Virus record (IMG/VR): IMGVR_UViG_3300025131_000141
Location: 1-38,675 of that record
Source: a virus
Strand: one strand, 5' to 3'
DNA length: 38,675 bases
Position numbers and translations under genes: made by a program
Shown here: positions 2,494-24,053 of the stretch, one piece after another
Layout: every line of letters begins with the position of its first letter
How positions within the stretch are numbered: position 1 is the first letter of the stretch
The notes under the pieces: model-generated
Told to the model about the DNA's origin: nothing
Databases searched by the model: none
Seen by the model: only the letters and a program-made list of their open reading frames with translations

Positions 2494-2971
2494 TAAATTT
2501 GCTACTGGGCCGGCAACTGCCCAGCAGCAATTAGCAATCAAACGATTCTGGCGTTTGGCTATACGGGAATTCGTCCGTGTAGCCATTCGCCACGTTAACT
2601 GGCAAACTGGGATGACTAGAGGCTCATTTATACCATTAGCAACAGCCGTACAGGCTAAGACTGCTATACAAGGTGTTTTGTCAGGCACATCCTTATCTGG
2701 CAAACGTTACTGGCACATTGGTTCTCCTTTTCACAAACAGCCCCAAACAAGAACCCTAGGTGAGCGGGCAGGACAGGATGCTTATAATATAGGTTGGGGT
2801 TCACCAACTAAATTGCATCTCACCTTTGAGTTTAGGATTAGTACAATCCAGCATCAGGTGCACGAGAGTCTGTGGCAGAGTTTGGATGCTGGGATAGAGG
2901 CAATGGAAGCCTTCATTGACATGAATAGTCCTGCGGGATTAGATGATACATTTGGGAGCTTTTGGGTGTAA
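2450..2971 (+). CDS. Tail protein of unknown function upstream of the tape measure
   Basis: This 173-residue protein starts at ATG 2450 inside the chaperone extension. It has a basic helical N-terminal half (QLAIKRFWRLAIREFVRVAIRHVNW), then WQTGMTRGSFIPLA, slightly like the 'tG.Lr.S' pattern of small virion proteins, and a C-terminal beta part, LHLTFEFRISTIQHQV. No family was recognised with certainty. Because it lies between chaperone and tape measure, a structural role in tail or neck is inferred. Confidence 0.45.
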   Translation: MPTSAAPLFKLANIDKFATGPATAQQQLAIKRFWRLAIREFVRVAIRHVNWQTGMTRGSFIPLATAVQAKTAIQGVLSGTSLSGKRYWHIGSPFHKQPQTRTLGERAGQDAYNIGWGSPTKLHLTFEFRISTIQHQVHESLWQSLDAGIEAMEAFIDMNSPAGLDDTFGSFWV

Positions 2972-2973
2972 AT

Positions 2974-5900
2974 ATGCCAAACGAAAAAGAACTTAAATGG
3001 ATCTTAGATTCCACACAGCCGCAGTTGTCGCTGGAGAATCTGGGGAAAGTATTTCGTACCTTCCAGGATAGTGGGGAAAAGGCCGCTGAAGCATTCATTA
3101 ACTTTTCCCGTAAGGGGAATGTTACTACTGCAACCCTAAAAAAGATTGATGAGCAGGGTAGGACTACTACTAAAACTCTCCAAGCAATGGGCGATGGTTG
3201 GGTACAGGTTGCTGCTAAAACTGATAGAGCAGTTGAAGCCTTTCAGCGATTTAATACTGCACAAGAGGCGGCAAGGCAAGTTGGTACCCTTGGCACTTTG
3301 GCTGGACAAAGCAGTGATTCAATTGCGGCGACAATAAGTGCTCGTGAGCTAGTTGATCAAGCGGGAATCAAATACAGAAAATATAGGGCTCAGGCTGATG
3401 CGAATATAGCTGGTGTCCAAGAATTACAAACGGCTGAAATTAACGCAACGAAAGCAGAATTAGAAGCTGAGCGAATATCAACCAGACAAAAGTTAGACAA
3501 TAGGCATAACTTACGGGAGCTGAATAGGTTAGGCCATAAAGAGGCTTTACAGCAGAATGAACAGCGAACACAAGCTAGTCAAATAGCAGCGCAACATGAG
3601 CGGGATAATACGAGGAATAATGCATCATTAGAACGTGCACAATTTGCAAAAACTCAACAAGAGATAAAGGCTGCTGATTTCCAGCGTTTTATAGCTCGTA
3701 AAAATGCTGCTGAAGTGGCCAGAGTAACTAAAAGCCGACAGGTAGCGGATGCTATAGCCGATCAGAAAAAAATTGAAGATCAATTGGATGAGAGTAAACG
3801 CCAAGCAGCAACAAATGCCAGGCAAGCTGCACTTAATCAAAATATCCAACTTCGAAAAAATCGAAATCTACGGGTGCAAGCTAATAGAGAGGCAGCAGAA
3901 GGGATTAAACGCGTTCGTATTGAGCAAATGCGGGCCAATTCAATGGCTACTAAGTTCAGTCAGACTTGGTCTAATATTGGTAGGATAGTCAAGGTCTCCC
4001 TTATCCATCGAGCTATCTTTGCCTTAACCAGAGGGATAGCTGAGGGAGTTAAGGGTGCGGTGGAGCTACAGAAGCGTATTGCTGAGATAAGAACTATATC
4101 CCAGGGCCAGCCTATAATGGTGCCTGGTTGGATTGAGGGACTAAGGGCAATATCTGATACTAGTGGTCAGGATATAGGTGCAGTTACGGAAGGTGCGTAT
4201 CAAGCTCTCAGTAACCAAATTACACAGGGTGTCGATACATTTGGATTTCTTCAAGAGGCAGCTAAATTCGCAAATGTGGCTGTTACTACAGTCGACCAAT
4301 CAGTCAACCTACTTACTGCATCATTGAATGCTTTTGGGCGGACTTCTGGTTCTGCAGGAAAAACAGCGGCACAGTTGTTTAAGACAATTGAGTTGGGTCG
4401 GTTACGTGCTGATGATATGGCCAATTCTTTTGGGCGGATCGCTGTCCTTGCCAACCAACTAGGTATTGCTAATACTGAACTACTTGCCTCGATTAGTACA
4501 CTTACTATCCAGGGTATGAAATACAACGAGGTAGCTACACAGTTACGCGGTTTGATGATTTCTCTTATTAAGCCCACCAAGGACATGCCTAAATTTTTGG
4601 CCAGTATGGGTGTTGAAACAGGTGAGGCAGCTATTGCAATTGATGGGCTTTGGGGTGTAATGTCTAAATTGCAGGATTTCACTAAAGGTAGTGCGAGCGA
4701 ATTAGCTAAATTAGTACCGCGTATCCGTGGTATCACGGGTGCCGCTGGATTGAGTGGACGAGGATTGCGACAGTATCTTGAGAACTGGAAAGAGATTTCA
4801 TCGGCCCAAGAGGACTATGGTAAGGCTGCTGAGATTATTTTGAATAATGTGGGTAAGCGTCTCGAAATTGGAGCAACTCAGCTCAAGAGTTTCTTTCGAG
4901 TAGATATTGCCAATGAGATGCTGATGACGCTAGATAAGCTACCTGGCGGTATTGACAAGGTAGTTGCTAGTTTGCAAGGACTGGTTCGTGTTACTGTGCG
5001 TGGATTAGTTCCAGGTATAGCGGCAGCTCTTATTGGTTTCAAAGGCTTGCAGGCTGCTTTTGTTGCGACTGGTCCAATTATATTATTGGGGCTGACGATT
5101 GATATGCTTTGGACCAAACTGCGTGAAGGCACGGAGATTATCAAAGCCCAGGCCAAATTCTGGCGTGAGTATTATGCCGCTCAATTAACTGCCACTAAAG
5201 AGTTTTCGGCCGCGATTTTGGAGGCTCATAAGGATAGAGTATCACAATTAACGTCCCAGGTAATCTCGGCTAGTGCTGAGCGAGTTAAGGCTCTCAGTGG
5301 ACGGATATCTGAGAGTATTGCGGCTGAGAAAAAGATAACTAATGCGGTAGTTCAGGAGTTTGACGTCCGTAAGAAGGCATTTGATCAGATGGAGGCTGCT
5401 CAACGGAATCTAATTAGTGGTAAACGACAATCATCAGATGCCTTTTTGGATGAAGCAAAGACTGCTCGTGGGGAGCGTATTGATATTCTTGTCGAAGGTC
5501 GTGGTGGCGGTCGTGGCTTTATGGGCCAACAACGGGGTTTCAAGCGGCAATTAACTTATCTTCAGAATGCTCAGAAACAGATAAAGGTAGGTTCTGATGC
5601 TTACTTTGACATACAACGACGTATCCGAGATATCCTGAAGCAGAGAGTGGATGCGGCAATTCAGTTTGCAAAGACAGATAAGAAGGGTAAGAGTAAGAGT
5701 GAGATTAGGGAGATTGAGAGAGCCGAGAGGTCGATCAACACCTTAATTAACCAAAGATTGCGCTTTCTGATTAGACTTGAGAAGCAATCTGTAGCAATGG
5801 CAAAGCAACGAGCAGCAGAGGCTAATGTTGAGGAAGCGCGTTTAATCCGATTTCAAGCTCTTCGGCAGGATTTCACTCTTGCCTTTAAGACAGTCAAGGG

Positions 5901-6846
5901 CGTGGATACTGAAAAGGCTGCTAAGGCTGGTGATGCAGGAACTCTTGCCCAGCAGACAGAGAACCTTAAACAGTTGATTAAAACACAGAAGGCACTTGGT
6001 CTAGATCCTAGTGTCACAGAGAATGCAGTACGCAGTCTCTTCAAAACAATGGAAAATCTATTTGTAAAAGAGGTTGAGTTAACAAAACAACAAACCGGTC
6101 TAAATCTAGAGAAGGATTTGAACGCAGCGGCGGAGGAAAGCGTTAGAAGAATGAATGAGGTCGCTACTACTGGAGCGCAACTGAGTTCTACTTTTGCGGG
6201 GATAACTGCTGATATATTGTTGGCTAAAAAGGAAGCATTTGGACGGGGGTTAGTGCTGCAGAAGGGGGCAAGGGCTGCCGATCGTCCACCTTATCGGCCT
6301 ATTGTGGAAGAGGGTGATCAGGTACTAACCGCCGCGTTACGTGCCTTCAGAGAAGCTCTCGAAACAGGTGGACCACTTGAAAAGAGTCGACAAGCACTCC
6401 TCGAAGCCTCGCAGAATATGTTAAAAATAGCAGATCCGACATTCCTTCAAAGGATGGAGGGGTTACGGGGTCAATTAGAGAGAATGAATCGTATATTGGA
6501 ACAGGACAAACCCTTCCAAATTCTTAAAGGTAAGAGCGCTGTTATCGATGCTGTTCAGACTCTAAGAGTAGCCCAGAAGGCAACTGAGAATATTGATGGA
6601 TTGCAAAGTGTATCTGCTCGCATGATAGACAATGCCCAGATACGCTCAAAGGCTATTGAGAAGCTAACGACGCAATTGGGTGAGATGGTGCTACAAGCAC
6701 AAGGTGGATCAGGTGGTGGGGATACTTACCAGATTGATAATATTACTATTCAGGGAAAAGGATCAGCGAAAAGTACCGCTGATGGGTTAGTTGATGAACT
6801 GCGGCAACGTAAATCAAGAGTGCGGCCGAGGACGGTAACACCATGA
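2974..6846 (+). CDS. Tail tape measure protein (TP901-type)
   Basis: This is the largest gene (1290 residues), which fits a tape measure that sets tail length. ATG 2974 is chosen rather than an in-frame TTG at 2962 that would overlap the previous gene. Residues of about 60-330 are Gln/Ala/Arg-rich coiled coil. From about 341 comes a TP901-like core, with ELQKRIAEIRTIS, GQDIGAVTEGAYQALS, FANVAVTTVDQSVNLL and TTLTIQ-like repeats ending in RGLMISLIKPTKDMPKFL. A hydrophobic stretch near 668-712 (GIAAALIGF, GPIILLGLTI) is a likely membrane segment. A second long coiled coil follows and the end is basic. It overlaps the next gene by ATGA. Confidence 0.9.
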   Translation: MPNEKELKWILDSTQPQLSLENLGKVFRTFQDSGEKAAEAFINFSRKGNVTTATLKKIDEQGRTTTKTLQAMGDGWVQVAAKTDRAVEAFQRFNTAQEAARQVGTLGTLAGQSSDSIAATISARELVDQAGIKYRKYRAQADANIAGVQELQTAEINATKAELEAERISTRQKLDNRHNLRELNRLGHKEALQQNEQRTQASQIAAQHERDNTRNNASLERAQFAKTQQEIKAADFQRFIARKNAAEVARVTKSRQVADAIADQKKIEDQLDESKRQAATNARQAALNQNIQLRKNRNLRVQANREAAEGIKRVRIEQMRANSMATKFSQTWSNIGRIVKVSLIHRAIFALTRGIAEGVKGAVELQKRIAEIRTISQGQPIMVPGWIEGLRAISDTSGQDIGAVTEGAYQALSNQITQGVDTFGFLQEAAKFANVAVTTVDQSVNLLTASLNAFGRTSGSAGKTAAQLFKTIELGRLRADDMANSFGRIAVLANQLGIANTELLASISTLTIQGMKYNEVATQLRGLMISLIKPTKDMPKFLASMGVETGEAAIAIDGLWGVMSKLQDFTKGSASELAKLVPRIRGITGAAGLSGRGLRQYLENWKEISSAQEDYGKAAEIILNNVGKRLEIGATQLKSFFRVDIANEMLMTLDKLPGGIDKVVASLQGLVRVTVRGLVPGIAAALIGFKGLQAAFVATGPIILLGLTIDMLWTKLREGTEIIKAQAKFWREYYAAQLTATKEFSAAILEAHKDRVSQLTSQVISASAERVKALSGRISESIAAEKKITNAVVQEFDVRKKAFDQMEAAQRNLISGKRQSSDAFLDEAKTARGERIDILVEGRGGGRGFMGQQRGFKRQLTYLQNAQKQIKVGSDAYFDIQRRIRDILKQRVDAAIQFAKTDKKGKSKSEIREIERAERSINTLINQRLRFLIRLEKQSVAMAKQRAAEANVEEARLIRFQALRQDFTLAFKTVKGVDTEKAAKAGDAGTLAQQTENLKQLIKTQKALGLDPSVTENAVRSLFKTMENLFVKEVELTKQQTGLNLEKDLNAAAEESVRRMNEVATTGAQLSSTFAGITADILLAKKEAFGRGLVLQKGARAADRPPYRPIVEEGDQVLTAALRAFREALETGGPLEKSRQALLEASQNMLKIADPTFLQRMEGLRGQLERMNRILEQDKPFQILKGKSAVIDAVQTLRVAQKATENIDGLQSVSARMIDNAQIRSKAIEKLTTQLGEMVLQAQGGSGGGDTYQIDNITIQGKGSAKSTADGLVDELRQRKSRVRPRTVTP

Positions 6847-7214: not shown

Positions 7215-7573
7215 TGGTCACCTTCACAGGGTATAAAAGTGGGGATACGGTCTCAGTTGACCTACCCAATCCACAGGATGATAGCCGTAATGAGGACAGT
7301 GTTGCGGTATTTCAGAAAGCCGAGGATGACACGCAATTCTCATATATCAGAACAGGTGGGTATGTTATTTTTAATCTGAGATTTAACAATTTAACTGAAA
7401 CGGAATGGGATGATCTGTGGGATGTGTGGCGTGCCGCCGCCGCGCAGGATCAAGTGAATTATACTGATCAATTTAGCACAGTTTATAGCGGCCACTTTCT
7501 CAATGATGAGATCGAGCGCGAATACATTGATAACTGCAATTCATTCGTGAGCATACAGTTTAAGGGTGTATAA
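7214..7573 (+). CDS. Putative tail-tip protein
   Basis: This 119-residue protein starts at ATG 7214 (TAATG overlap) and shares its stop with the next start in the same way. A central TGGYVIFNLRFNNLTETEWDDL reads like a beta sandwich followed by a short helix. The tight coupling on both sides puts it in the tail-tip operon between tape measure and the large hub protein. The function is inferred from position. Confidence 0.45.
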   Translation: MVTFTGYKSGDTVSVDLPNPQDDSRNEDSVAVFQKAEDDTQFSYIRTGGYVIFNLRFNNLTETEWDDLWDVWRAAAAQDQVNYTDQFSTVYSGHFLNDEIEREYIDNCNSFVSIQFKGV

Positions 7574-10323
7574 TGAGAGTCATCGACGGTGGAGTAGATG
7601 CAAAGGTCACTACTAGGATCGGCACTGAGCCGCTGATCATAGTATGGGTTGATTGGCCTAGTGGGGCAGTATACTATAGTGAGAAAGCATATAAAACGGC
7701 TAGCCCCTGGCTAAAGAGCGTTGGTGACATCAGTGTAAGTGGCACATATAATGAGTTGAATAGTGTCAGTACTGTGCAGATCCAGCTCATTGACCCAGAA
7801 GAATCACTTGAGGATCTATACCAGCAAGATGAAATAGAGGGTATTGATTGTACTGTCTATCTCACTTATCCTAACATAACAAACTACAATCAGATGGAGC
7901 CATTGCTTAAGGGCAGAATCAAGGGTGATAGTTCCTTTGATACAGGCACTAGTATTCTCACTTTTAGTGTTGAGAATATCTTCAGTGATCAGAAGATTGG
8001 CTATGCCCCAGAGGATGGCGATATCACGGATATGTCGCCTGATGCAGTCGGCGTAGCTTGGCCTGTCTCCTTTGGCTCGGTGCTTAAGATCCCCGCTATT
8101 AGAGTGAAGAAGGCTGTTGTTGGTCAGGCTGGGGAAACAGTCAGTGCAAATCAAACCAGTTTCATCATTGAGAATGGTTCCTCGTTTCCTCAGAATAGCT
8201 CAATAGATATTAAGATTGGGCAGATCGGTTTCACCGGTACGTTCAACGGCAATGTCTTTACGCCGAGCGCAGATAATATCGTCCTACATAGCAATCTAGG
8301 CCTAGATACTAATCTAGGTACTGATGGACAAATAGCATACCTCGACGAATATAAGCATATCGTCGGGTTATATTGTTATGTTGATCACCCTACCTATGGA
8401 GATATGTTCAATAAATGTGTTGCACAGAGTGGGAAGAAATGCTGGTTCTCTAAGCCGTGGCGGGAGAATGGTACTTCTAATGAGCGGGTGCTAGGGGCAA
8501 CAGATATTTTGAAGGAAGTGAGTGGATGGCCACGTGAGTCATGGAGTGATAGCTATCAGCTTGAGGGTTTCTACGAGGATAGTGTGATGGTACACTATCG
8601 AGCTAATGCTGGTGGTTGGTGGATTCCTGCCGGCGTGGAGGTATCAACAGTTGAAACATTCGATGATCTATATGTCTTTAATTGCTTGACCACAATTGAC
8701 TCAGTAGCAGAAGTATACGGTTGGCGCACATTCAATGACAAGCGACTATTCTCGCCTATTCCATCCAGTTATTATACGAAGAACCTAAGTAATACACTTA
8801 ATAGTGTGGCTTGTGCCACGCTGGAGTTCCACACTAGACTAGAGGATTATCCTGGTGAGAACTGGGATGGTGACATCTTCGTCTCTGTACGCGGCTCACT
8901 AGCTGGTGATACCGGTGATATTGTTAAATGGATAATTGATAACTACACTGGGTTAGCTAGTGATAGTGGTTCCTTCGCGGGCGTCAGCACGTCATTGACT
9001 AATTTCCCCAGCCATTTCCACATTAACAAAGTGTGGAATGCCCTCGATTTAGCTCAAGAGATAGCTTGGCAGGCACGGTGCTCGTTGTACGTAAAGAACG
9101 GCACTGTCTTCATGGATTACCTAAGTGAGATCGTTGCCGGCGTAGGAACGATCACACTAGCTGATGTACTACAAGGTAGTCTCACTTATGGTAGACGGCC
9201 ATCCCGTGATATAGTCACAAGAATCGAAGCTAACTGGCTCAAAGACCACAGTGGTCGTCCCTCCGCCACACAGCAATACGTATACGAGAATAACATTGAT
9301 TCATTCGGTATGCAAGAAGAAACATATGATTTCTTCATATACAATATCTTCGAGCTAGTGGAGGCATCAGTCGATTTCTGGGGGTACAGGAAGAGTCAGG
9401 CATGGATGCACGTTACTTTTGTTACGCCACTATTCAATCTAAAGTATGAATATCTTGATGTATTGACTATCAATATGCTGGATATCTCCTCTGTACGTGG
9501 CGTACTGATGGAGCAAACTATATCGGATTTCCTTAGTGAGACACCCATAACGAATAGGGTAGAGATAGCAATGGCATCGGATTCTGCTGTCTCTGAGGAT
9601 ACACAATATTGGGGCGCACCATATGTTGCCCTACCTGATGATCCCACTGACAACATGGCGGAGATTGACTATGACCCGATAAAGAAGCCAGGAACTATAA
9701 CGTGGCGAGGTAGGACAGATGACGATGAAGATGATATCTCCTGCTATTTTAGAGTGAGGACAAAGACGGAGATAGAGCGTAGTACGAATTTCAACGTTAG
9801 GATTGATGCATATGATGAGCGACGTAAAGTTCGTCTCAGTATTAATGTAGATGTGCGACTGATTCTACAAAGTAGTGACGGTAGTGATGCTCTTAGTGAC
9901 ACAACTAAGACTTTGAAGAACGGTCGATGGGAGGGTAATCTTCAGGTTACAGGTGGGACAGGTGATGATGTTGCTCAGATTGAAGTTATCCAGGAGGGTG
10001 GTGATCGCGGTGCAACTAAATGTACTTCTGGCTCATCTGAGTTCTTTGATATTTCGGGGACAGCAATCAGTCCGTCACCTGGAGACATAGGGCCGGCTTA
10101 CTTAATCCCCGTTAAGGTCACCAGTAAACACGATAACACTACTTATGTTTGTAGTATATATGAGGATGGAACAGATGCTGCGGCCACACAGACGGGTGTT
10201 GGGGTGAAGGTCAATCAAATAGCTGCCAATCAAACTATCCCTAATGACACTATTCTTTCTGCTCACAGGCAAAAGTGGGCTGGAGTGTGGTGGCTTACAA
10301 TAGATGTGACGAGGTTATACTAA
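7573..10323 (+). CDS. Tail hub / tail-tip attachment protein
   Basis: This 916-residue protein is the first large gene after the tape measure and the two small tip proteins, the place of the central hub (Tal or lambda gpJ-like). The N-terminal part shows a 'VQIQLIDPEESLEDLYQQDE' and 'LLKGRIKGDSSFDTGTSILT' pattern, typical of proteins that define a local axis or hub. A middle region of about residues 270-700 contains GGWWIPAGVEV and WARCSLYVKNG-like strands. The acidic C-terminal 200 residues look like beta-sandwich domains exposed to the host. No peptidase motif was seen. An alternative is a fibre-bearing minor tail protein. Confidence 0.6.
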   Translation: MRVIDGGVDAKVTTRIGTEPLIIVWVDWPSGAVYYSEKAYKTASPWLKSVGDISVSGTYNELNSVSTVQIQLIDPEESLEDLYQQDEIEGIDCTVYLTYPNITNYNQMEPLLKGRIKGDSSFDTGTSILTFSVENIFSDQKIGYAPEDGDITDMSPDAVGVAWPVSFGSVLKIPAIRVKKAVVGQAGETVSANQTSFIIENGSSFPQNSSIDIKIGQIGFTGTFNGNVFTPSADNIVLHSNLGLDTNLGTDGQIAYLDEYKHIVGLYCYVDHPTYGDMFNKCVAQSGKKCWFSKPWRENGTSNERVLGATDILKEVSGWPRESWSDSYQLEGFYEDSVMVHYRANAGGWWIPAGVEVSTVETFDDLYVFNCLTTIDSVAEVYGWRTFNDKRLFSPIPSSYYTKNLSNTLNSVACATLEFHTRLEDYPGENWDGDIFVSVRGSLAGDTGDIVKWIIDNYTGLASDSGSFAGVSTSLTNFPSHFHINKVWNALDLAQEIAWQARCSLYVKNGTVFMDYLSEIVAGVGTITLADVLQGSLTYGRRPSRDIVTRIEANWLKDHSGRPSATQQYVYENNIDSFGMQEETYDFFIYNIFELVEASVDFWGYRKSQAWMHVTFVTPLFNLKYEYLDVLTINMLDISSVRGVLMEQTISDFLSETPITNRVEIAMASDSAVSEDTQYWGAPYVALPDDPTDNMAEIDYDPIKKPGTITWRGRTDDDEDDISCYFRVRTKTEIERSTNFNVRIDAYDERRKVRLSINVDVRLILQSSDGSDALSDTTKTLKNGRWEGNLQVTGGTGDDVAQIEVIQEGGDRGATKCTSGSSEFFDISGTAISPSPGDIGPAYLIPVKVTSKHDNTTYVCSIYEDGTDAAATQTGVGVKVNQIAANQTIPNDTILSAHRQKWAGVWWLTIDVTRLY

Positions 10324-11304
10324 ATGAGCTATGAAGAGCCAGCTAGTTGGACAGACGTAGATGCTGGGGGCAATGCCATATCCTGGGCATCTATGACAAA
10401 TAAACTCATATATCCGGCTGTAGAAATGATACGTCGAGCTATCGATGAGAGGACACTTGGCGGGAGTACAAGTTTGAGTGAACTGGAACCAGGAGGTTCA
10501 CTTATCCCCACTGGATGGATGTATGCTGTTGAACAAGAAATAGATGCGTTGGTACCTCTGTTTGTTGATCATACACAAGTGGGTGGGTCAGATGCTTTTG
10601 AGGATGTCTCCATTATTCCAATGTGGACCATAGCTAATTTGATGACAGCAATTAGTGAGACTCGTATTACACATACTGATACTGGTCATCAAATACCTTT
10701 AGCGGCTTGGGCTGTACAACAATACAAAATGTTGAATATGCTCCGATGGCGGCGCTATTGGGATACAATCATTGATCTAAAAGAGAACACCGAAGAAATT
10801 AAGGTAGTTGAAAATGTCACTACTTGGGGCACTGTTGAGTCCTCTTTCCCAGGCCAATCGTGGAATGCAGTGGAGACTGAAGATGGTGCATTATTCGCGA
10901 TGGCTTGGGCTCAAGCTGCTGACGATTTCTCAGCCCAGCGAGAACGTGTAACTGCACAGTATAAACAAACATCTCATGGGTTTGATGTGGCATTAGATAT
11001 ATATGTCAGACCTGAAAATCACGCGTTAATTGATAATTGGGAATGTAATGATTTCGGCTCACCGTCTGAAGCTAATTTAGGTCTAGATTTCCAGGTAACA
11101 ACACCTGCAGAATATGATAGTAATCCCACAGATATTGGGGTAGTGGCCGACTATGATACAGTTCCTGTTGCGGAACCAGCAGAAGGAGAGAATGCAGGTT
11201 ATCGTTTAGGGGAGATGGATGCTGGCTTGAATGAGAATGCTGCTGGATTAATTGTAGTGGCCAAGTTTGACGTGGCAGGTGGCTTTGTGTGGAAGGATTG
11301 GTAA
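10324..11304 (+). CDS. Virion-associated protein, possible receptor-binding or fibre component
   Basis: This 326-residue protein starts at ATG 10324, directly after the hub stop. The N-terminal 170 residues are helical and hydrophobic (WASMTNKLIYPAVEMIRRAIDER, WTIANLMTAISETRI). The C-terminal half is acidic and beta-rich and ends FDVAGGFVWKDW. No repeat, collagen or chaperone domain typical of large fibres was seen. It is the last gene of the tail operon before the sugar-enzyme cassette, so a distal tail role is inferred. Confidence 0.4.
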   Translation: MSYEEPASWTDVDAGGNAISWASMTNKLIYPAVEMIRRAIDERTLGGSTSLSELEPGGSLIPTGWMYAVEQEIDALVPLFVDHTQVGGSDAFEDVSIIPMWTIANLMTAISETRITHTDTGHQIPLAAWAVQQYKMLNMLRWRRYWDTIIDLKENTEEIKVVENVTTWGTVESSFPGQSWNAVETEDGALFAMAWAQAADDFSAQRERVTAQYKQTSHGFDVALDIYVRPENHALIDNWECNDFGSPSEANLGLDFQVTTPAEYDSNPTDIGVVADYDTVPVAEPAEGENAGYRLGEMDAGLNENAAGLIVVAKFDVAGGFVWKDW

Positions 11305-11305
11305 G

Positions 11306-12343
11306 ATGTTATTCGGCTTCGGACACTGCGAGGAACCGTTCAGATCCAATGTAGTGGATATACTAGAGGCAAACGGACTATCTGTCCAAAGCAAGAAGAG
11401 TGTCAATCCTGTATTCTGGGATGGCACCTTTGCTTGGAATATGGGCTATCGGTTGGATGAGTTCAAGCGAGAGCGTAATATTCTGGCCATGGAGAATACT
11501 GTTCTCGGTGATAGTAAGAACTACTATTACTTAGACATTGATGGTTACGGCTATACTGGCTCAATACGTAAGTATCGGTGCGATGAACTGGCCACTGTGA
11601 AGGGCACATACGCTGAGGACGGCCCGATCCTAATCTGCCTGCAAGGTCCGACCTACCAGACTACGCGGGGTATGTACCACGATACCTCTAATTACACTAA
11701 CCACTTCCTTGAGCAATGCTATAAGTACCTACCTGAGTGGAAGTATGAAGTGCGTATGCATCCGAGTCATAGGAATTATCCTATCAGAAATATGCGTAGT
11801 GATTGGACGATTGATCCGTGGGATATGAAGCTACATGATAAGTTGCCACACTGCCGTGGCATTGTCACAATTAATAGCAATTGTGCTATCCAAGCTATGT
11901 ACGCAGGTGTGCCAGTAGCAACACTTGGACGCGGCCCCTGGAGCGAAGCTAATGCGGCTTTTGATTGCTACGTAGCTTCCAATTTGAGGATGTTCCTACA
12001 TTATAAAGTGAATACACTCTCGGTTAGGAGTTTCCTTGCTAAGTTCCGCCGCTTCTGTTTATGTGCTGACAGCACTAAAGAGGATATCCTACACTGCCCA
12101 CCTTTCAAGAAATTCATTGATCGGTTGCTCTTCAAAGAGATCAAGACAGCTAATGCAATGAATGATTACAAGAAGGTGAAAGCCAAGATCCTTGTGAGTG
12201 AGGACAGCCTGTTACAGGCATTCCTAGAAGAGCATGAGCTTTTAGTTGAAAATAGCGACACTATGTCAGCCTGCCAAAAGAATGCGCGTCGGAACCATTT
12301 CGTAGGAAAGTATAATGCTAACTATCGTCATGTCCACATATAA
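11306..12343 (+). CDS. GT-B type glycosyltransferase-like protein
   Basis: This 345-residue protein is started at ATG 11306, which has GGAAGGA nine bases upstream; an upstream in-frame TTG would overlap the previous gene and is not preferred. The C-terminal half contains HCRGIVTINSNC and AIQAMYAGVPVATLGRGPWSE near residues 185-215. This is the acceptor-to-donor helix pattern of capsule-type or CDP-glycerol/Kdo-like transferases: a Ser/Asn-rich loop, then 'ea...G.Pv...G'. An 'MHPSHR' segment near 150 is also typical of that group. It opens a run of six sugar-related genes. The substrate cannot be told. Confidence 0.6.
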   Translation: MLFGFGHCEEPFRSNVVDILEANGLSVQSKKSVNPVFWDGTFAWNMGYRLDEFKRERNILAMENTVLGDSKNYYYLDIDGYGYTGSIRKYRCDELATVKGTYAEDGPILICLQGPTYQTTRGMYHDTSNYTNHFLEQCYKYLPEWKYEVRMHPSHRNYPIRNMRSDWTIDPWDMKLHDKLPHCRGIVTINSNCAIQAMYAGVPVATLGRGPWSEANAAFDCYVASNLRMFLHYKVNTLSVRSFLAKFRRFCLCADSTKEDILHCPPFKKFIDRLLFKEIKTANAMNDYKKVKAKILVSEDSLLQAFLEEHELLVENSDTMSACQKNARRNHFVGKYNANYRHVHI

Positions 12344-12989
12344 CAGAGACCACTTGCTCAGGCTTACCCTTCCTCGCTTACGCAAATATACAGATGCCAA
12401 GGTTATACTAATAGATGATGGTGTGGTTGGAACAGGGCCGGAGCTAGCAGCACAGTATGATTGTAAGTATGTATTGACTGAGAACACTGCGTGGCGCTCA
12501 CCAGTAACCAGCCACAATCTAGGTGCTGGTATGGTGACCACACCATATATGGCGCTAATGTGTGCTGAGATCTACCTAGTTAACGATTGCATCACACCGA
12601 TGCTATTCAATGTTAAGCACTTTTCTTGCATGGCGATACCGACAGGCCGCCACGGTGGTGGAGCTAATCTGAATGCTCTTCAGGATGGTCGACCTGTGCC
12701 TTATAAAGGTAGTGTCCTCAATACATACCTACCTTTCTTCATGATGTTTCGCACTGCTGATTACGTTGGTTATAGTGAGGAATTCGCTCACGGCCATGGC
12801 TGGGATGATGATGATTTCGTTCTGCGTATGAACATACCATATGGATTAACATATGGTCGCTGCATACACTTGAAGCATGCTAAGGGTCATTCAGTCCGCA
12901 AAAATCTACGTTCCAATACAAGAGTCTTTAAGCGACAAAAATACAACGGTCTGTATTCAAAGAAGAGTATTGAAAATGGAGCTTTCTGA
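12315..12989 (+). CDS. Family 2-like (GT-A) glycosyltransferase
   Basis: This 224-residue protein begins MLTIVMSTYNRDHLLRLTLP, the classic GT-A start, followed by VILIDDGV (about residues 30-37) where the nucleotide-sugar-binding Asp pair lies. GHGWDDDDFVLRM near 165-177 fits the 'W.DeDf..R' catalytic-site pattern of family 2 enzymes. ATG 12315 has GGAAAG upstream and overlaps the previous gene by 29 bases. It probably transfers a sugar from a nucleotide donor; the acceptor is unknown. Confidence 0.8.
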   Translation: MLTIVMSTYNRDHLLRLTLPRLRKYTDAKVILIDDGVVGTGPELAAQYDCKYVLTENTAWRSPVTSHNLGAGMVTTPYMALMCAEIYLVNDCITPMLFNVKHFSCMAIPTGRHGGGANLNALQDGRPVPYKGSVLNTYLPFFMMFRTADYVGYSEEFAHGHGWDDDDFVLRMNIPYGLTYGRCIHLKHAKGHSVRKNLRSNTRVFKRQKYNGLYSKKSIENGAF

Positions 12990-13506
12990 AAGCAGGATAA
13001 GATCAGTTGTGGAGGAGGAGGTGTGGGTAGCCGGCAAGGGTCCATCTCTGGACACCTACAATTGGGGCAATAGTAACGGCTGCAATTTCGGCCTAAATGA
13101 AGCTGCCTTTCTCGTGCCACACTGTGTTGGTGCCTTCGCTGTGGACACGAAGATACTGGAGAAATTCACGCGTGAGTTAGCACTCCCTACTATTGTCTTC
13201 ATTGAGCACCGCAAAAGATTCACCTATGAAAAGTATTTCAAATTCAACCGACCGAAACACTTCGCCTTTAGTGGTGGCGTTATACTAGTAGCAACACAGG
13301 TATTGAGCTATTTCGGTGTTAAAGTGATCCATTTCGTAGGCTGTGATAGTATCACACAGCGACAGGAAGATCGTGGTTATGCTAAGGGTATAAGGAAGAT
13401 AAAAGGGCAAGGTACGAATAATGATTTTTTTAAGGTTATCAATACTAGGTTAGTCGAGAACTTAGATAAGATGGGTTTGGAGGTAGTATGGGAACATACC
13501 GAGTAG
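12976..13506 (+). CDS. MptE-like / DUF115-like protein, copy 1
   Basis: This 176-residue protein is started at ATG 12976. Earlier in-frame starts would lie far inside the upstream gene. VWVAGKGPSLDTYNW near the N-terminus is the 'GkGPSLd' nucleotide-binding loop of the MptE-like/DUF115 family and of related sialyltransferase-like folds. LNEAAFLVP, GAFAVD and IHFVGCDS fit the later conserved positions. Known relatives are linked to surface glycosylation or pterin diphosphate transfer. It is followed by a diverged tandem copy. No substrate can be assigned. Confidence 0.6.
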   Translation: MELSESRIRSVVEEEVWVAGKGPSLDTYNWGNSNGCNFGLNEAAFLVPHCVGAFAVDTKILEKFTRELALPTIVFIEHRKRFTYEKYFKFNRPKHFAFSGGVILVATQVLSYFGVKVIHFVGCDSITQRQEDRGYAKGIRKIKGQGTNNDFFKVINTRLVENLDKMGLEVVWEHTE

Positions 13507-14091
13507 GGAAGGACGTATGGTCAGCCGGCAAGGGGGCATCCCTTGATACATATAACTGGTCACTTGCTAATGATTGGCGCTTTGCTTTGAATGAAGCAGC
13601 TATGATTGTGCCTCGTTGTATAGGGGCCTTCGCTGTTGATATCGAATCAATGTGGAATATAGTAAAATATAAAGCCAATCAGTGTACACTGTTTATTGAT
13701 CCCGAGTATGTATGTACGGTCAAGAGTGTTGAGAAACTGAAGAATACCAAGTTAGAGGTGAAGCAATACCATGAGTTACGCCAAGGCATTCACTACAAAA
13801 CGATCTTTGGTGTAGTTAAGCCAGCGATACAATCACTATACTCCTTCGGTGCAAGAAGAATACATTTCATTGGTTTCGACAGTATGGAGGGCTACCATAA
13901 AGGAACGATGGATGGATGGATGTAACGTAGCGAATAGTCTAAGACTATTTAATTGCAAAGTACCAAGAAATAATAATTACTACCATTTCAGTATTCATGT
14001 ACTTGCTATGCTTAGGACACTTGAAATGGAGGGTATCTGGCATCTACCGAGTGGCGACCTAACTTTGGAGTTTCTCCGTGAGCCTGAATAA
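13488..14091 (+). pseudogene. MptE-like / DUF115-like protein, copy 2, frameshifted at a (GATG)4 repeat
   Basis: The ATG at 13488 has an ideal GGAGG. The frame runs to TAA 13923-13925 (145 residues) and matches copy 1 through VWSAGKGASLDTYNW, LNEAAMIVP, GAFAVD and RIHFIGFDS, though GPSL has become GASL. Past the stop, the +1 frame continues the homology: RNNNYYHFSIHVLAMLRTLE aligns with TNNDFFKVINTRLVENLDKM of copy 1 and ends at TAA 14089-14091. The frame changes exactly at four GATG units (13907-13922). Loss of one unit would give a full-length protein of about 200 residues. It may be a phase-variable OFF state, a dying copy or a sequencing error. Confidence 0.7.
13907..13922 (+). repeat. 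(GATG)4 tetranucleotide repeat
   Basis: Four perfect GATG units sit inside the second MptE-like gene, directly before its in-frame TAA. The downstream homology is in the +1 frame, so three units (or six) would keep the reading frame open and four close it. Repeats of this kind are prone to slipped-strand mispairing. Confidence 0.9.
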
Positions 14092-14995
14092 ATTCACATC
14101 AACAGCATTGTTGCCGACTAAGGTGCTACGTAAGCACCCAATCGACAAAAACAATCATATTATCCCATACCATATACAATTGTATCCAACGCATAAGTGC
14201 AATCGGAATTGCCACTATTGTGTGCTCAGTAAACTGGACAGAACAGTCGAGATGCACTTTGATGAGATATGTGCATTACTGCGTCACTTCTGGTTCTTAG
14301 GCACACGTGCCGTAACGTTGACCGGTGGTGGTGAACCAACACTACACCCTAAATTCTGGGAGATAGTTGCCTTTTGTTACAATGAAGGCATTGAAACAGG
14401 GCTCGTAACCAATGGAGATTTCCTCCATAATGCGCCAAATATAGCGCATACTCTCACTTGGATTCGAATGTCAGTTAATGACATAACTAAGGTGCCTAAA
14501 GCTATCGAGAGCCTAATTAATATCGACGTTGGACTGTCTTTGGTTATTACTGATCGAACACCACTTTGCCAAGTGGAAGCATTGTGTGAACTAGCTAATG
14601 CTTACAAGCACGTAACGCATGTACGCTTTGCGCAGGATGTGGTGCATTTGCCAAAAACGATCTTTGAAGAGGCGAAGAAAGTGGCCGCAGGATTGACGGA
14701 TAAGGCTGTCTTTCAAAACAGAGACAGTCCAACTGTAGGTACTAGGCAGTGTCTAGTTGGTCAGCTTAGACCGCTGATTACAGCCAATGGTGATGTCTAC
14801 CCGTGCTGTGGTATTCAGTATTCTACCCGGTGGCAAGGTAAGTACCCGGCCAAGTATAAGTATTGCCACTGGACTGATTATGAACTAGGAATGAAGGCAT
14901 TCGACGGAAGTATTTGCGAACGCTGTGATTTCATGAACTATAATACGTTACTTCAAGCCATGACAGAACCGGTTGAGCATGAGGAGTTCATTTGA
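14078..14995 (+). CDS. Radical SAM enzyme
   Basis: This 305-residue protein is started at GTG 14078, with GGAG eight bases upstream; no upstream ATG is available and the N-terminal part fits. THKCNRNCHYCVL holds the CX3CX2C [4Fe-4S] motif (Cys41, 45, 48). GGGEPTLHP near 90 is the SAM-binding 'GGE' motif. C-terminal cysteines (QCLVGQLRPL, YPCCG, ICERCDF) look like a SPASM/twitch-type second cluster site, which favours a modifying enzyme over a lyase. It lies between the MptE-like copies and a glycosyltransferase, so a role in building or modifying a sugar or peptide substrate of that cassette is inferred. Confidence 0.85.
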   Translation: MSLNKFTSTALLPTKVLRKHPIDKNNHIIPYHIQLYPTHKCNRNCHYCVLSKLDRTVEMHFDEICALLRHFWFLGTRAVTLTGGGEPTLHPKFWEIVAFCYNEGIETGLVTNGDFLHNAPNIAHTLTWIRMSVNDITKVPKAIESLINIDVGLSLVITDRTPLCQVEALCELANAYKHVTHVRFAQDVVHLPKTIFEEAKKVAAGLTDKAVFQNRDSPTVGTRQCLVGQLRPLITANGDVYPCCGIQYSTRWQGKYPAKYKYCHWTDYELGMKAFDGSICERCDFMNYNTLLQAMTEPVEHEEFI

Positions 14996-15771
14996 TGAAT
15001 TTTGTAACATTCTACACGTTAGGTAATCGTTACGAGCAAGTGGTACAGAAACTACTTGAGTCAGCTGAGAAACACGATATCGAAGTATACGCAGAGGGTG
15101 TTGAGGATAGGGGTACGTGGGTTGCTAACTGTGGCATTAAGCCTGAGTTCATCCGTAAGTGTTATGATATGTTCGATGAACCATTTACATTTGTGGATGC
15201 TGATGCTCAGTTCCACGGCCAACCTGTGCTCCTCGATGAGTTAGATTGTGACATAGCTGTGCATTATATGCGAAAGGAACTGCTCTCAGGCACTGTCTAT
15301 GTGGGCAATACCGAAGGCGCGCTGGAGGTGTTGGACGCGTGGGTAGCAGAGCAAAAGAAAGCCCATAGAGACTGGGATCAAAGAACACTTCAGCGCGTAC
15401 TCGAACGTCTTGATGTTAATGTAACTGAGTTACCGCAACAGTACACAGCAATCTTTGATAGAGACATTGAAAATAGGATCATTGTGCACTATCAAGAGAG
15501 TAGGAAGGGTAGGCGGGGGACTGAAGGAATGATGGCGAAGCCGGTTGACGAACCGTCAACGCCAATTAATATCCTGCATACTCGGGCCGAGATTGAGTCC
15601 ATGATACAGACGAACTGTAATCGGAACCCAGGTGTGAGAGTGCATTCGAATGGCACTCTCAGCATCTGTCGTCCCTCAGAGAAGGTAACTACTTATCTTA
15701 AGAAGCATTACCGACAAGTGCATGAGGGCAACGAAAAGATCTGGGCTCCGATTGACAGTACCTCTACGTGA
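14995..15771 (+). CDS. Nucleotide-sugar transferase with DxD motif
   Basis: This 258-residue protein starts at ATG 14995 (TGATG overlap with the radical SAM stop). FTFVDADAQFHGQP near 64-76 is the metal-binding DxD loop, followed by DIAVHYMRKELLSGTVYVGN and RDWDQRTLQRVLE. These three elements match the nucleotide-diphospho-sugar transferase fold (GT8/GT77-like): the donor site, the 'l.sGt.y...t' strand and the 'wDQ..l' motif. The last 80 residues are a separate, Cys-containing, positively charged tail with no recognised family. The stop overlaps a convergent gene by 8 bases. Confidence 0.75.
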   Translation: MNFVTFYTLGNRYEQVVQKLLESAEKHDIEVYAEGVEDRGTWVANCGIKPEFIRKCYDMFDEPFTFVDADAQFHGQPVLLDELDCDIAVHYMRKELLSGTVYVGNTEGALEVLDAWVAEQKKAHRDWDQRTLQRVLERLDVNVTELPQQYTAIFDRDIENRIIVHYQESRKGRRGTEGMMAKPVDEPSTPINILHTRAEIESMIQTNCNRNPGVRVHSNGTLSICRPSEKVTTYLKKHYRQVHEGNEKIWAPIDSTST

Positions 15772-16099
15772 TGTAGATCGGTTGATTAGTGTCTTCAGCA
15801 ACATACAGTAATATGCAGAAATCACTAAGCCATTCTCTTTCAGTGCTAGGTACCCAGTTAATTAGGATATGCTCTAGTGTTTCTAAAAGAATGGCGGCCT
15901 CTTGATCAGTTATCATCGTCGTGAATGTGAAGAATTTAATGGCCGGATGTCCATCCAATCGTGCGATGGCATCCGGCCATGTCAGTTTAGTCCCCTTGTG
16001 TACACCATAACTAGCTAGCACTAACCCTCTAATGCGTGACAATTTGAGACTACTCAGCCACACATTAAAATAGTCTTTCTCACCGATTTTGAAGTTCAT
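15764..16099 (-). CDS. Hypothetical protein at the end of the minus-strand operon
   Basis: This 111-residue protein starts at ATG 16099, coupled to the upstream zinc-ribbon gene by ATGA. It has an alpha/beta character, with FFTFTTMITDQEAAILLETLEHIL, a Trp/Ser-rich SSTEREWLSD-like segment and a hydrophobic end. No family was recognised. It is the last gene of the minus-strand unit and overlaps the convergent glycosyltransferase end by 8 bases. Confidence 0.5.
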   Translation of the reverse strand: MNFKIGEKDYFNVWLSSLKLSRIRGLVLASYGVHKGTKLTWPDAIARLDGHPAIKFFTFTTMITDQEAAILLETLEHILINWVPSTEREWLSDFCILLYVAEDTNQPIYIT

Positions 16100-17022
16100 T
16101 CGTCTTCATACTCCTCTAGTCCCGCTACATTCTTGAGTAGTTCCATTGCCTTAGCCCGTATTACAGCGGGTGACGGCGGTTGTCCGCGCTGGACTATTCC
16201 CTCAATACGGGTGCAAGTAGCGTCAAGTAGTTCCTTAATTAGTGGCATGATTGAGGGTTGGCGCATACTGTCAGGCAATGGTTTCCAGAAGGCCCTCTCC
16301 CAATCTATACTACCATCACAAAATGACTTTCCATCCCAATACGCATACCTCCCATTTACGGCTTTTGCCAACTGAGATATCTCATAGAAGCACTTCACAT
16401 TAGGCTCCATGAAATCAGTGTGGAAACGTTCTATTGTATCATTAGGACCGGCTGAAGTGCTGTACCTATTACACTTCTCACACAGGTGGATTAGTTTATC
16501 TTTGTCAATTACGATTTTATAATCACAGTGAGTGCATTTCATAGTTTCATTTACCTCCTCAAGTGTCCAAGCATGATGGCATTTGCTACAACAGTAAATG
16601 GCTGGATTGTCTCTTGTTGGTAGAATAGTATCGAAACTAGTCGAACCACATGCATTGCATTTATTGCTTATAGATTCATCCTTCTTATTTTGACAGTCTA
16701 TCCGACCCTTAGAGCATGCTTTACAGAGATATTCTCTATTTGGTCCATTGGGCATACCGGTAGTCGCTGTTTCTCCACACTCGTAAGTGACCATTTTCTC
16801 AGTATCCTTTTTTAACCACACATTCTCGCAATGTTTGCAGTAACAAATTGTGGGCTCGAAGTCAACACGAGCGATAACGTCAACGTCAGGCGCACCACAT
16901 TTTGGGCATTTCATCGTCTCTTCCTTTTCATTTAGCCCTATAAACATACAAGTATGACAATAATCACCACCTACAGTTTGACTGCAATTAACTGAACCGC
17001 AAGACTGACACACAGTTATCAT
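16096..17022 (-). CDS. Multi-zinc-ribbon protein with internal duplication
   Basis: In this 308-residue protein the first about 185 residues carry roughly ten CxxC-type pairs: CQSC, CHTC, CPKC, CKHC, CKAC, CNAC, CSKC, CTHC and CEKC. Two units are clear internal duplicates: residues 38-69 (CPKCG...D.I...P.ICYCKHC..VW) and 122-152 (CNACG...D.I...P.IYCCSKC..AW). The C-terminal 110 residues have no cysteine array and include YAYWDGKSFCDGSIDWERAFW and a helical end. The upstream neighbour overlaps by 4 bases. A role in nucleic-acid or protein binding through metal ribbons is inferred; no enzyme motif was seen. Confidence 0.6.
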   Translation of the reverse strand: MITVCQSCGSVNCSQTVGGDYCHTCMFIGLNEKEETMKCPKCGAPDVDVIARVDFEPTICYCKHCENVWLKKDTEKMVTYECGETATTGMPNGPNREYLCKACSKGRIDCQNKKDESISNKCNACGSTSFDTILPTRDNPAIYCCSKCHHAWTLEEVNETMKCTHCDYKIVIDKDKLIHLCEKCNRYSTSAGPNDTIERFHTDFMEPNVKCFYEISQLAKAVNGRYAYWDGKSFCDGSIDWERAFWKPLPDSMRQPSIMPLIKELLDATCTRIEGIVQRGQPPSPAVIRAKAMELLKNVAGLEEYEDE

Positions 17023-17612
17023 ATCCTAGTCATCCTCTTGTATGTTTCCGCCATTGCTAAGCAATCAGTTAATACTGCGATTGGCCTCTCCCGAGCCACC
17101 TTCATCGTTACACAAAGATAACTGAAACTGAACTTAGGGAATGGTGTCTCTGTTGAGCGCAACCCTGCCTTATCATTTAGGAATTGCGCTGTTGCACACA
17201 GGCTACGTTCGTGAAAGAAAAGCCTGTCATAGTCATCTTTGAGCCAATTTCTTAGGAAAAGTGTTTCCATGTGGCTGTAGACTAGTGGTATGATTTTACG
17301 TGGATTACCGTTTTTATCAGTACCGATCCCCATTCTACGTATCCAGTTCTCAAATGTGTCAATTGCATCGATTGACTCTATCCCTAGTTCTAATGCCTCG
17401 TAAAGATCTGCTTTTTTGATTTTAGCTCGATGTGGATGATCAGGTGCCTTCAGCATACGAAAAGAAGACTTAGTCTTATTACGATCTAAGCCATCTTTTA
17501 ACATGAGACAACCTATCTCAAGAATCTCGTGGAGGAACGGATTTTCCCCTGTCGTTGTCATTGCTAGTGCTACAATCGGTCGTCCGTTCAGATGCTGCAT
17601 GAATTTGGGCAT
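17019..17612 (-). CDS. DEDD-exonuclease-like protein with lost catalytic residues
   Basis: This 197-residue protein has GGAGAG upstream of ATG 17612. The fold of a DnaQ/oligoribonuclease-type 3'-5' exonuclease is recognisable: VALAMTTTGENPFLHEILEIG in place of the usual 'valDtETTG..p..deIiEIG', then SHMETLFLRNWL for the ExoII block, FHERSLCATA, and ERPIAVLTDCLAMAETY for 'eRPHRAL.DclataE.Y'. The D and E of ExoI, the N and D of ExoII and the His of ExoIII are all replaced; only the ExoIII Asp remains. It is therefore probably a non-catalytic, nucleotide- or protein-binding derivative. The gene overlaps the upstream gene by 95 bases. Confidence 0.65.
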   Translation of the reverse strand: MPKFMQHLNGRPIVALAMTTTGENPFLHEILEIGCLMLKDGLDRNKTKSSFRMLKAPDHPHRAKIKKADLYEALELGIESIDAIDTFENWIRRMGIGTDKNGNPRKIIPLVYSHMETLFLRNWLKDDYDRLFFHERSLCATAQFLNDKAGLRSTETPFPKFSFSYLCVTMKVARERPIAVLTDCLAMAETYKRMTRI

Positions 17613-23015: not shown

Positions 23016-24053
23016 ATGTCTGACGAAGCGACGATTATTCCGACAAGTAAGCTCAAGACGGTGTCCGTTGATAGGTGCGTGGCATCACCCACTCTTATGA
23101 GGGAAGTGGACAAAGAGAGTGAGGAATTCATCGGGATCTGTGACAGTATTCGGCAAGAGGGATTTATCTCAGCGGTCACGGTTAGACCGGCAGAACGGGG
23201 GCAGAAAGATTACGACTATTATGTCGTTGATGGTCTTCACAGATTCCTCGCCGCGCAGACAGTTGGTATGACTGACATTCCCGTTGTCATTCGCAACATC
23301 GACGAAGCGGAGGCTTTGAAGGTGATGTTGATGGGCAACATCCACAAGAAGGATGCGAAGCCTTTTGAAGAGGCTAAAATGATTCGGGCAGTATTGGCGA
23401 ATGAGCCAACTATGACGATCACCGACATGGGACAGTCCCTCGGTAAGAACGTTATTTACATCCGTAAGAGGCTCAAGCTCGTTGCCAAAATCACGAATCC
23501 TGAGATTATGAAAGAAGTGGATTCGGGTAAAATCAACCTGAATAACGCTATCGAGCTGTCACGTCTGCCTGCTGCTGATCAGGTTGCCATGTTGGCCGAT
23601 GCCAAGACCATGTCTTCACAGGAATTTACTGCGAATGTTGAATCGCATCTGACTGAGGCTCGTAAGGCCGCCAACAAAGGTGAAAAAGCCGCACCTAAAT
23701 TCGAACCCCATTTGATTCTGCAAACAAGGAAGAAACTCCGTGAGGAGATGGAATCTCTTACAGCAGGTCATGCCCTCTGCGCTGACCTCAAGACCCCTCT
23801 TGAGGGCTACGCTGTCGCCTTGAAGTGGATTCACTCTATGGACCCATTGACCTTGGAAGAAAGACAGGCGAAGTGGGAAGAAAAGCAACTACAAAAGGAG
23901 CAAGACAAACAGCGAAGGACGATGGAAGCATCGTTGAGGAAGACCGAGAAGACGCGGAAGGAGTTGGCAGAAGCGGAAGCATCAGCCCAAACCGCAACTG
24001 ATTGGCTCCAGAAGCACAGTAACGAAATCGCAGCAGCAGCAGTGAACAGTTAA
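23016..24053 (+). CDS. ParB-like nuclease/DNA-binding domain protein 1
   Basis: This 345-residue protein starts at ATG 23016, with AAGGAG eight bases upstream. The N-terminal 110 residues are a ParB/Spo0J-like domain: RQEGFISAVTVRPA, YYVVDGLHRFLAAQTVGMTDIPVVI (the 'vdG.hR..Aa...G...ip..v' core) and MGNIHKKDAKPFEEA. A helix-turn-helix region follows (TITDMGQSLGKNVIYIRKRL). The last 120 residues are a charged coiled coil. The protein may bind the palindromes just upstream of its own gene, which would give autoregulation, partition or origin control; that link is inferred from proximity. Confidence 0.8.
   Translation: MSDEATIIPTSKLKTVSVDRCVASPTLMREVDKESEEFIGICDSIRQEGFISAVTVRPAERGQKDYDYYVVDGLHRFLAAQTVGMTDIPVVIRNIDEAEALKVMLMGNIHKKDAKPFEEAKMIRAVLANEPTMTITDMGQSLGKNVIYIRKRLKLVAKITNPEIMKEVDSGKINLNNAIELSRLPAADQVAMLADAKTMSSQEFTANVESHLTEARKAANKGEKAAPKFEPHLILQTRKKLREEMESLTAGHALCADLKTPLEGYAVALKWIHSMDPLTLEERQAKWEEKQLQKEQDKQRRTMEASLRKTEKTRKELAEAEASAQTATDWLQKHSNEIAAAAVNS

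Follow-up and report, generated by a model that had tools for sequence, protein, structure and literature searches.

Six consecutive genes at positions 11306-15771 of a viral contig encode a series of glycosyltransferase (GT)-like proteins and one radical SAM enzyme. The contig is IMG/VR record IMGVR_UViG_3300025131_000141, analysed over its whole length of 38,675 bases (the window). We read this block as a phage glycan-modification module that is co-produced with the tail (late) genes, in which the radical enzyme would tailor a sugar or its acceptor and the acceptor would most likely be a virion protein. We put the probability of this reading at about 0.5. An earlier note on this DNA made the broader claim that a phage carries a glycan-modification cassette that includes a radical SAM enzyme, and this claim has good support. 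Our reading draws on gene content, a Twitch-type cysteine pattern, the predicted folds of the radical SAM enzyme and of an MptE-like protein, the association with transferases across phages and the setting among structural genes, and from these we infer every reaction, the acceptor and the timing. To our knowledge, phage glycosylation is known for few systems, mostly with one or two transferases. If a radical SAM partner does recur in head and tail operons, phages would be producing unusual sugars themselves, with consequences for adsorption, for host defence and for immune recognition. The analysis supplies an enzyme family with a confident structural model and a concrete set of loci for testing (L004, L010-L018, L020, L024, L046 and L153).

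A block retained behind the tail genes

The six open reading frames (ORFs 1-6) lie at 11306-12343, 12315-12989, 12973-13506, 13488-13925, 14078-14995 and 14992-15771, all on the plus strand and each overlapping or abutting the next, as the earlier note had described. Its placement of the block directly after tail genes also stands. A tape-measure gene at 2962-6846, assigned through a PHROGs match (tail length tape measure, E 9e-23), is followed by a large plus-strand gene at 7573-10323 and a 326-aa ORF at 10324-11304, and the block begins 2 bases later, at 11306. A scan of 9500-17000, which covers the stretch between the tail genes and the block, showed no site resembling a terminator. The large gene probably encodes a tail tip or fibre. 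It has no PHROGs match at E 0.1 and no match in phage records, and its homologues stand 5' of the cassette in four other loci (L010, L011, L012 and L017).

The window has no near-match at the DNA level in phages. Its sister record, IMGVR_UViG_3300025141_000151 (L002; 49,947 bases), has identical coordinates in the block region and differs at 9 bases over the 20,915 compared. Among the loci compared for gene order, a check that the earlier note had proposed, the exact six-gene set was found only in this sister record. A variant of the block occupies the same position in four distantly related phages, the same L010, L011, L012 and L017. In each of them, the homologue of 7573-10323 comes first, then the block variant and then a homologue of the window's gene at 17019-17612. 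Common to all four are a family 2 glycosyltransferase (GT2), the radical SAM enzyme, a PF03407-like gene and an MptE-like domain, either free or fused. Because the block is retained, with changes, in these four relatives, it is not a chance arrangement. Their radical SAM enzymes cluster with the window's on a tree, together with that of a Nitrospirota contig (L090), and L013 stands one step out. A single origin of the viral enzymes is rejected by the same tree, in which virus and genome-contig rows are intermixed, with 13 label changes over 74 rows, at least 10 of them forced.

A Twitch-type radical SAM family and its partners

ORF 5 (14078-14995, plus strand, 305 aa) matches the radical SAM family above the Pfam cut-off (PF04055, 48.1 bits versus 29.5, E 1.9e-12). 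Its CX3CX2C motif, recognized in the earlier note, comprises C41, C45 and C48, which are invariant in all 37 aligned relatives. Four C-terminal cysteines (C225, C243, C280 and C283) are equally invariant, with C244 present in 26 of 37, the x17 spacing kept in 33 and the CX2C spacing in 36. These extra cysteines had been called SPASM-like. As set out in PMC6231123 and PMC9012708, SPASM is a seven-cysteine motif binding two auxiliary clusters and Twitch is its one-cluster form, ligated in BtrN by four cysteines. With four invariant extra cysteines, not seven, and a SPASM score of 14.6 bits against a cut-off of 21.5 (PF13186), we reject a SPASM domain; the pattern is that predicted for a Twitch enzyme, whose shortened SPASM domain can ligate a single auxiliary cluster. 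Viperin is likewise rejected (NCBIfam viperin equivalog, 49.7 bits versus a cut-off of 180). The family also carries a near-invariant C-terminal tail, HxxF[VIL] (14978-14992 in the window), with the histidine fifth from last in 32 of 37 sequences and the phenylalanine second from last in 35.

The predicted structure of ORF 5 is confident, with a predicted local distance difference test (pLDDT) score of 92.5 and a predicted template modelling (pTM) score of 0.90. The best Foldseek matches are the sugar-acting enzymes DesII, in first place (7.6e-11), and BlsE. By VIA-align, Z scores are 21.6 for SkfB, 21.1 for SuiB, 19.9 for viperin-like enzymes, 19.2 for DesII (over 285 residues) and 19.0 for BlsE. 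The BtrN fold is also among the matches. The modelled fold alone does not decide between a sugar and a peptide substrate.

Relatives of this enzyme are widespread in phage contigs. From 600 stretches, our viral scan kept the best 80 of 139 relatives, so these loci do not sample phages at random. Gene labels came from profiles seeded by reading sequences, partly of the same loci, and are not independent of them. After five repeated loci were dropped, 83 viral loci were left, 66 of them with a score of at least 200; among these 66, a labelled GT lies within 5 kb of the radical SAM gene in 42 and a labelled methyltransferase in 46. The association is steeply distance dependent. At 59 viral loci of score at least 200 (14 near-duplicate or repeated loci dropped, genes under 100 aa excluded), labelled GTs account for 66 of 258 genes (26%) in the nearest 1.5 kb, for 19 of 184 between 1.5 and 3 kb, for 12 of 219 between 3 and 5 kb and for 6 of 230 (3%) between 5 and 8 kb. 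A Pfam scan of 129 close neighbours at the 37 aligned loci, taken as two same-strand genes to each side and limited to 90-700 aa, identified GT2 (PF00535) in 27 and a methyltransferase (PF13489) in 17. The partnership with transferases is real and its partners are variable. Many unrelated phages carry similar sets of transferases and a radical SAM enzyme, freely reshuffled.

Several of these islands sit among virion genes. The island adjoins capsid or head-tail genes in seven viral loci (L004, L014, L016, L018, L020, L024 and L046), and capsid labels were verified for L004, L014 and the genome contig L153. Gene calling took the longest ORFs and can miss true genes, such as the L004 capsid gene, which lies under a longer minus-strand ORF. 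In a second group (L014, L018, L020 and others), capsid genes on one side and head-tail genes on the other flank the radical SAM gene and its companions, which are MptE-like, GT and sulfotransferase genes. The radical SAM genes of HTVC008M and SynMITS9220M01 lie among GT and methyltransferase genes, accompanied in SynMITS9220M01 by heptose genes. L153, a contig binned as Zixiibacteriota, has the same capsid-island arrangement and a second radical SAM gene (10096-11664), whose product has a SPASM-like match and a fused methyltransferase domain. In two contigs binned as archaea (L094, Diapherotrites; L097, Archaeoglobaceae), radical SAM and GT genes stand beside unidentified, possibly viral structural genes.

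Putative transferases of the block and a probable frame break

The family assignments made in the earlier note fared unevenly: GT2, radical SAM and a DxD transferase of family PF03407 pass their Pfam cut-offs, whereas the GT-B and MptE-like proteins fall below theirs. ORF 2 (12315-12989, plus strand, 224 aa) is a GT-A family 2 enzyme that narrowly clears the Pfam threshold (PF00535, 23.9 bits versus 23.3), and its family profile matches chondroitin synthase (3e-16) and beta-1,4-galactosyltransferase (8e-8) in PDB. A DxD metal site is expected of GT2 enzymes. ORF 2 reads CAE at this place, and CAE or PE is found across its relatives; E85, the glutamate of this site, is invariant in its alignment (n = 11), as are N68, D165, H185 and H188. 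ORF 6 (14992-15771, plus strand, 259 aa) is a PF03407-like nucleotide-sugar transferase (23.3 bits versus 22) with a DxD at residues 69-71, of which D69 and D71 are invariant in 7 of 7 aligned sequences. Its profile has no PDB match at E 1. ORF 1 (11306-12343, plus strand, 345 aa) is tentatively a GT-B-like glycosyltransferase of the capsule-synthesis or DUF6716 kind. It scores 16.1 bits against a cut-off of 20 for PF05159 (Capsule_synth) and 15.5 against 27 for PF20471, with both matches confined to residues 175-210, and its only relative in the viral contig scan is in the sister record, with none in phages (tblastn) or PDB.

ORF 3 (12973-13506, plus strand, 177 aa) and ORF 4 (13488-13925, plus strand, 145 aa) form a pair of putative MptE/DUF115-fold, GT42-like proteins, which we number 1 and 2. 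Both score below the MptE-like cut-off (PF01973, 16.7 and 14.9 versus 34.6), and 11 of 21 relatives match this family at E 0.01. A profile built from the 21 relatives matches the GT42 sialyltransferase CstII (1ro7) across the whole domain (E 6.2e-9, profile positions 1-186 of 197). The earlier note had proposed structure prediction as a check for GT folds. The model of protein no. 1 (pLDDT 79.4) does align by VIA-align with a Maf glycosyltransferase (Z 9.8) and Cst-I (Z 8.2), but an MptE-type HPPK scores higher (Z 10.9). Because Foldseek returned nothing for this model at E 0.001 (best 1.7e-3, an MptE-type kinase), the GT42 assignment is based on the profile match together with VIA-align. A tblastn search of phages at E 0.01 returned nothing for protein no. 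1. L011, L012 and L017 encode the ORF 6 homologue and an MptE-like domain as one fused protein, an arrangement that favours a transferase role for the MptE-like proteins.

Protein no. 2 is 37% identical to no. 1 across 140 columns, and its match to the family profile stops at residue 140. ORF 4 is probably frame-broken, because it terminates at 13925, just past a tract of four GATG repeats (13907-13922, plus strand, inside the end of the ORF), with an out-of-frame ORF of 80 aa behind it (13849-14091, plus strand). This second ORF is possibly the rest of protein no. 2; as its lost C-terminus it is not significant by homology (hmmsearch score -1.5; blastp E 2.6). The tract is identical in the sister record, and a four-copy tetranucleotide tract appeared in none of 300 mononucleotide shuffles of the window. 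It could be a slippage switch, or the gene could be dead. The earlier note had suggested that the block encodes a complete pathway. This was not borne out: none of the six ORFs is a sugar-nucleotide biosynthesis gene, and ORF 4 is probably broken.

Proposed acceptor of the modification and known systems

We propose that two to four transferases (the GT2 enzyme, the PF03407-like enzyme, one or two of the MptE-fold GT42-like proteins and perhaps the GT-B-like protein) would draw on the host's activated sugars to assemble a short glycan in the cytoplasm. By way of a 5'-deoxyadenosyl radical, the Twitch-type enzyme would oxidise or epimerise a glycan sugar, its nucleotide-sugar donor or the acceptor residue. 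That the product is an oxidised or epimerised sugar is a guess by analogy, made because Twitch and SPASM enzymes with fully cysteine-ligated clusters, such as BtrN, are linked to two-electron oxidations in PMC9012708. The acceptor would most likely be a tail or head virion protein, with a host surface glycan second; the setting of the block among head and tail genes suggests both a virion acceptor and late synthesis. Strongly hydrophobic stretches of 19 residues (Kyte-Doolittle mean at least 1.8) are absent from every protein of the block and from 126 of the 129 close neighbours of the radical SAM genes, and soluble transferases with no flippase or membrane-anchored enzyme suggest that the sugars are added inside the cell.

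Several observations weigh against our reading of the block. The closest VIA-align fold of MptE-like protein no. 1 is a pterin kinase, and by VIA-align Z the peptide maturases SkfB and SuiB rank at or above the sugar-acting DesII and BlsE for the radical SAM model. The earlier note held that finding the radical SAM gene alone elsewhere would undermine its proposal. The outcome lies between the two: the gene recurs beside other GTs or methyltransferases, yet without the six-gene set outside the sister record, and 24 of the 66 viral loci (for example L028, L029, L034, L040 and L043) have no labelled GT within 5 kb.

The module might instead alter a host surface glycan (lipopolysaccharide (LPS), capsule or an S-layer sugar) during infection and thereby exclude other phages. 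We think this clearly less probable than a virion acceptor, although it is how the GT islands of pelagimyophages and cyanophages are interpreted in parts of PMC7029224 and PMC7824862. Relatives of the radical SAM gene are also found in genome contigs of cells, where 18 of 24 (score at least 200) have a labelled GT no more than 5 kb away, but some such contigs are phage-like (L091 and L153). Core-LPS type transferases that are soluble would be compatible with a host-surface role, whereas the position of the block among head and tail genes speaks against it, and no flippase, polymerase or membrane-anchored transferase was seen in it. By the same absence of membrane-like segments in any block protein, the block is not a gtr-type O-antigen conversion cluster, which carries a membrane flippase and a membrane transferase.

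Direct action of the radical SAM enzyme on a phage protein, by cross-linking, epimerisation or oxidation of the kind seen in ribosomally synthesised and post-translationally modified peptides (RiPPs), with the transferases then glycosylating that residue, is improbable in our estimate. The VIA-align ranking of SkfB and SuiB and the virion-gene neighbourhood fit such a route. However, the enzyme lacks the N-terminal peptide-recognition (RRE) domain of RiPP maturases of the SkfB/SuiB type, since the roughly 40 residues ahead of C41 are modelled as a short helix and a single strand; DesII leads the Foldseek ranking; and methyltransferases and GTs are its usual neighbours (no search aimed at a precursor-like peptide gene was made). 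Glycosylation of hydroxymethylated phage DNA against restriction is a very remote prospect. Phage GTs that act on DNA are described in parts of PMC7029224 and PMC12619734, but the thymidylate-synthase/hydroxymethylase family PF00303 was found in 0 of 9 records, possibly fragments (other base-hypermodification genes not sought), against 9 of 14 genomes in the positive control. This absence speaks against the commonest route of DNA glucosylation.

The general combination of GTs with a radical SAM enzyme has already been reported in phages, and the block is a variant of it. The earlier note had known of no phage system described with exactly this gene combination. This holds for the exact set, in that a literature search with most subscription journals outside it found no paper on this gene set or on the Twitch radical SAM family in head and tail operons, but not for the general kind. 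Pelagimyophages (HTVC008M and relatives) carry GTs with radical SAM cassettes in a host-recognition island of the structural region near tail fibres, according to PMC7029224. HTVC008M AGE60492 is a full-length relative of ORF 5 (25% identity, E 8e-16) and lies beside GT-like and methyltransferase genes. By contrast, these are large T4-like phages whose radical SAM enzyme is 456 aa long with an N-terminal extension, with partners that include carbamoyltransferase and UDP-glucose dehydrogenase type genes; in L006 the nearest 4 kb carry no MptE-like label. Jumbo cyanophages also carry multi-family GT clusters, proposed to change surface polysaccharide (PMC7824862, section 3.4.10), but these include sugar kinases, epimerases and nucleotidyltransferases, and the term radical SAM does not occur in the paper's main text. 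PMC7150976 names radical SAM and glycosyltransferase genes side by side among those frequent in phage samples from the Tasman Sea.

A model for the acceptor would be the mycobacteriophage transferases that glycosylate capsid and tail-tube subunits (Freeman et al. 2023, via PMC12619734); the passage of PMC12619734 on this work mentions no radical SAM partner. For the chemistry, DesII and BlsE are the best Foldseek matches to ORF 5 and BtrN is likewise a four-cysteine Twitch enzyme, although all three belong to cellular antibiotic biosynthesis and share 13-20% identity with it. GT42 CstI/CstII and Maf flagellin transferases resemble the MptE-like pair in profile and fold, but the block proteins are shorter (145-177 aa) and the block has no CMP-sugar synthase gene. 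On a wider scale, we tentatively suggest, while considering it doubtful, that the widespread HxxF[VIL]-tailed Twitch family constitutes a general viral glycan-diversifying system. Placed among the head or tail genes of phages that are not related, and working with interchangeable transferases, methyltransferases and sulfotransferases, it would put radical-made, non-standard sugars on virions, and the tetranucleotide tract may switch one transferase on or off.

Beyond the block, its 3' end overlaps a convergent minus-strand ORF at 15764-16099. Two members of the convergent minus-strand group are a gene of primase type and one for a dATP/dGTP pyrophosphohydrolase-like protein (phrog_801). In the relatives, the homologue of 17019-17612 (minus strand) bears DTETTG, which we take to be a DnaQ-like motif; the window copy, read by eye, has AMTTTG there, and its product may have lost catalytic acids. 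Two ParB-like genes (PHROGs), at 23016-24053 and 27104-28099, lie within the replication region.

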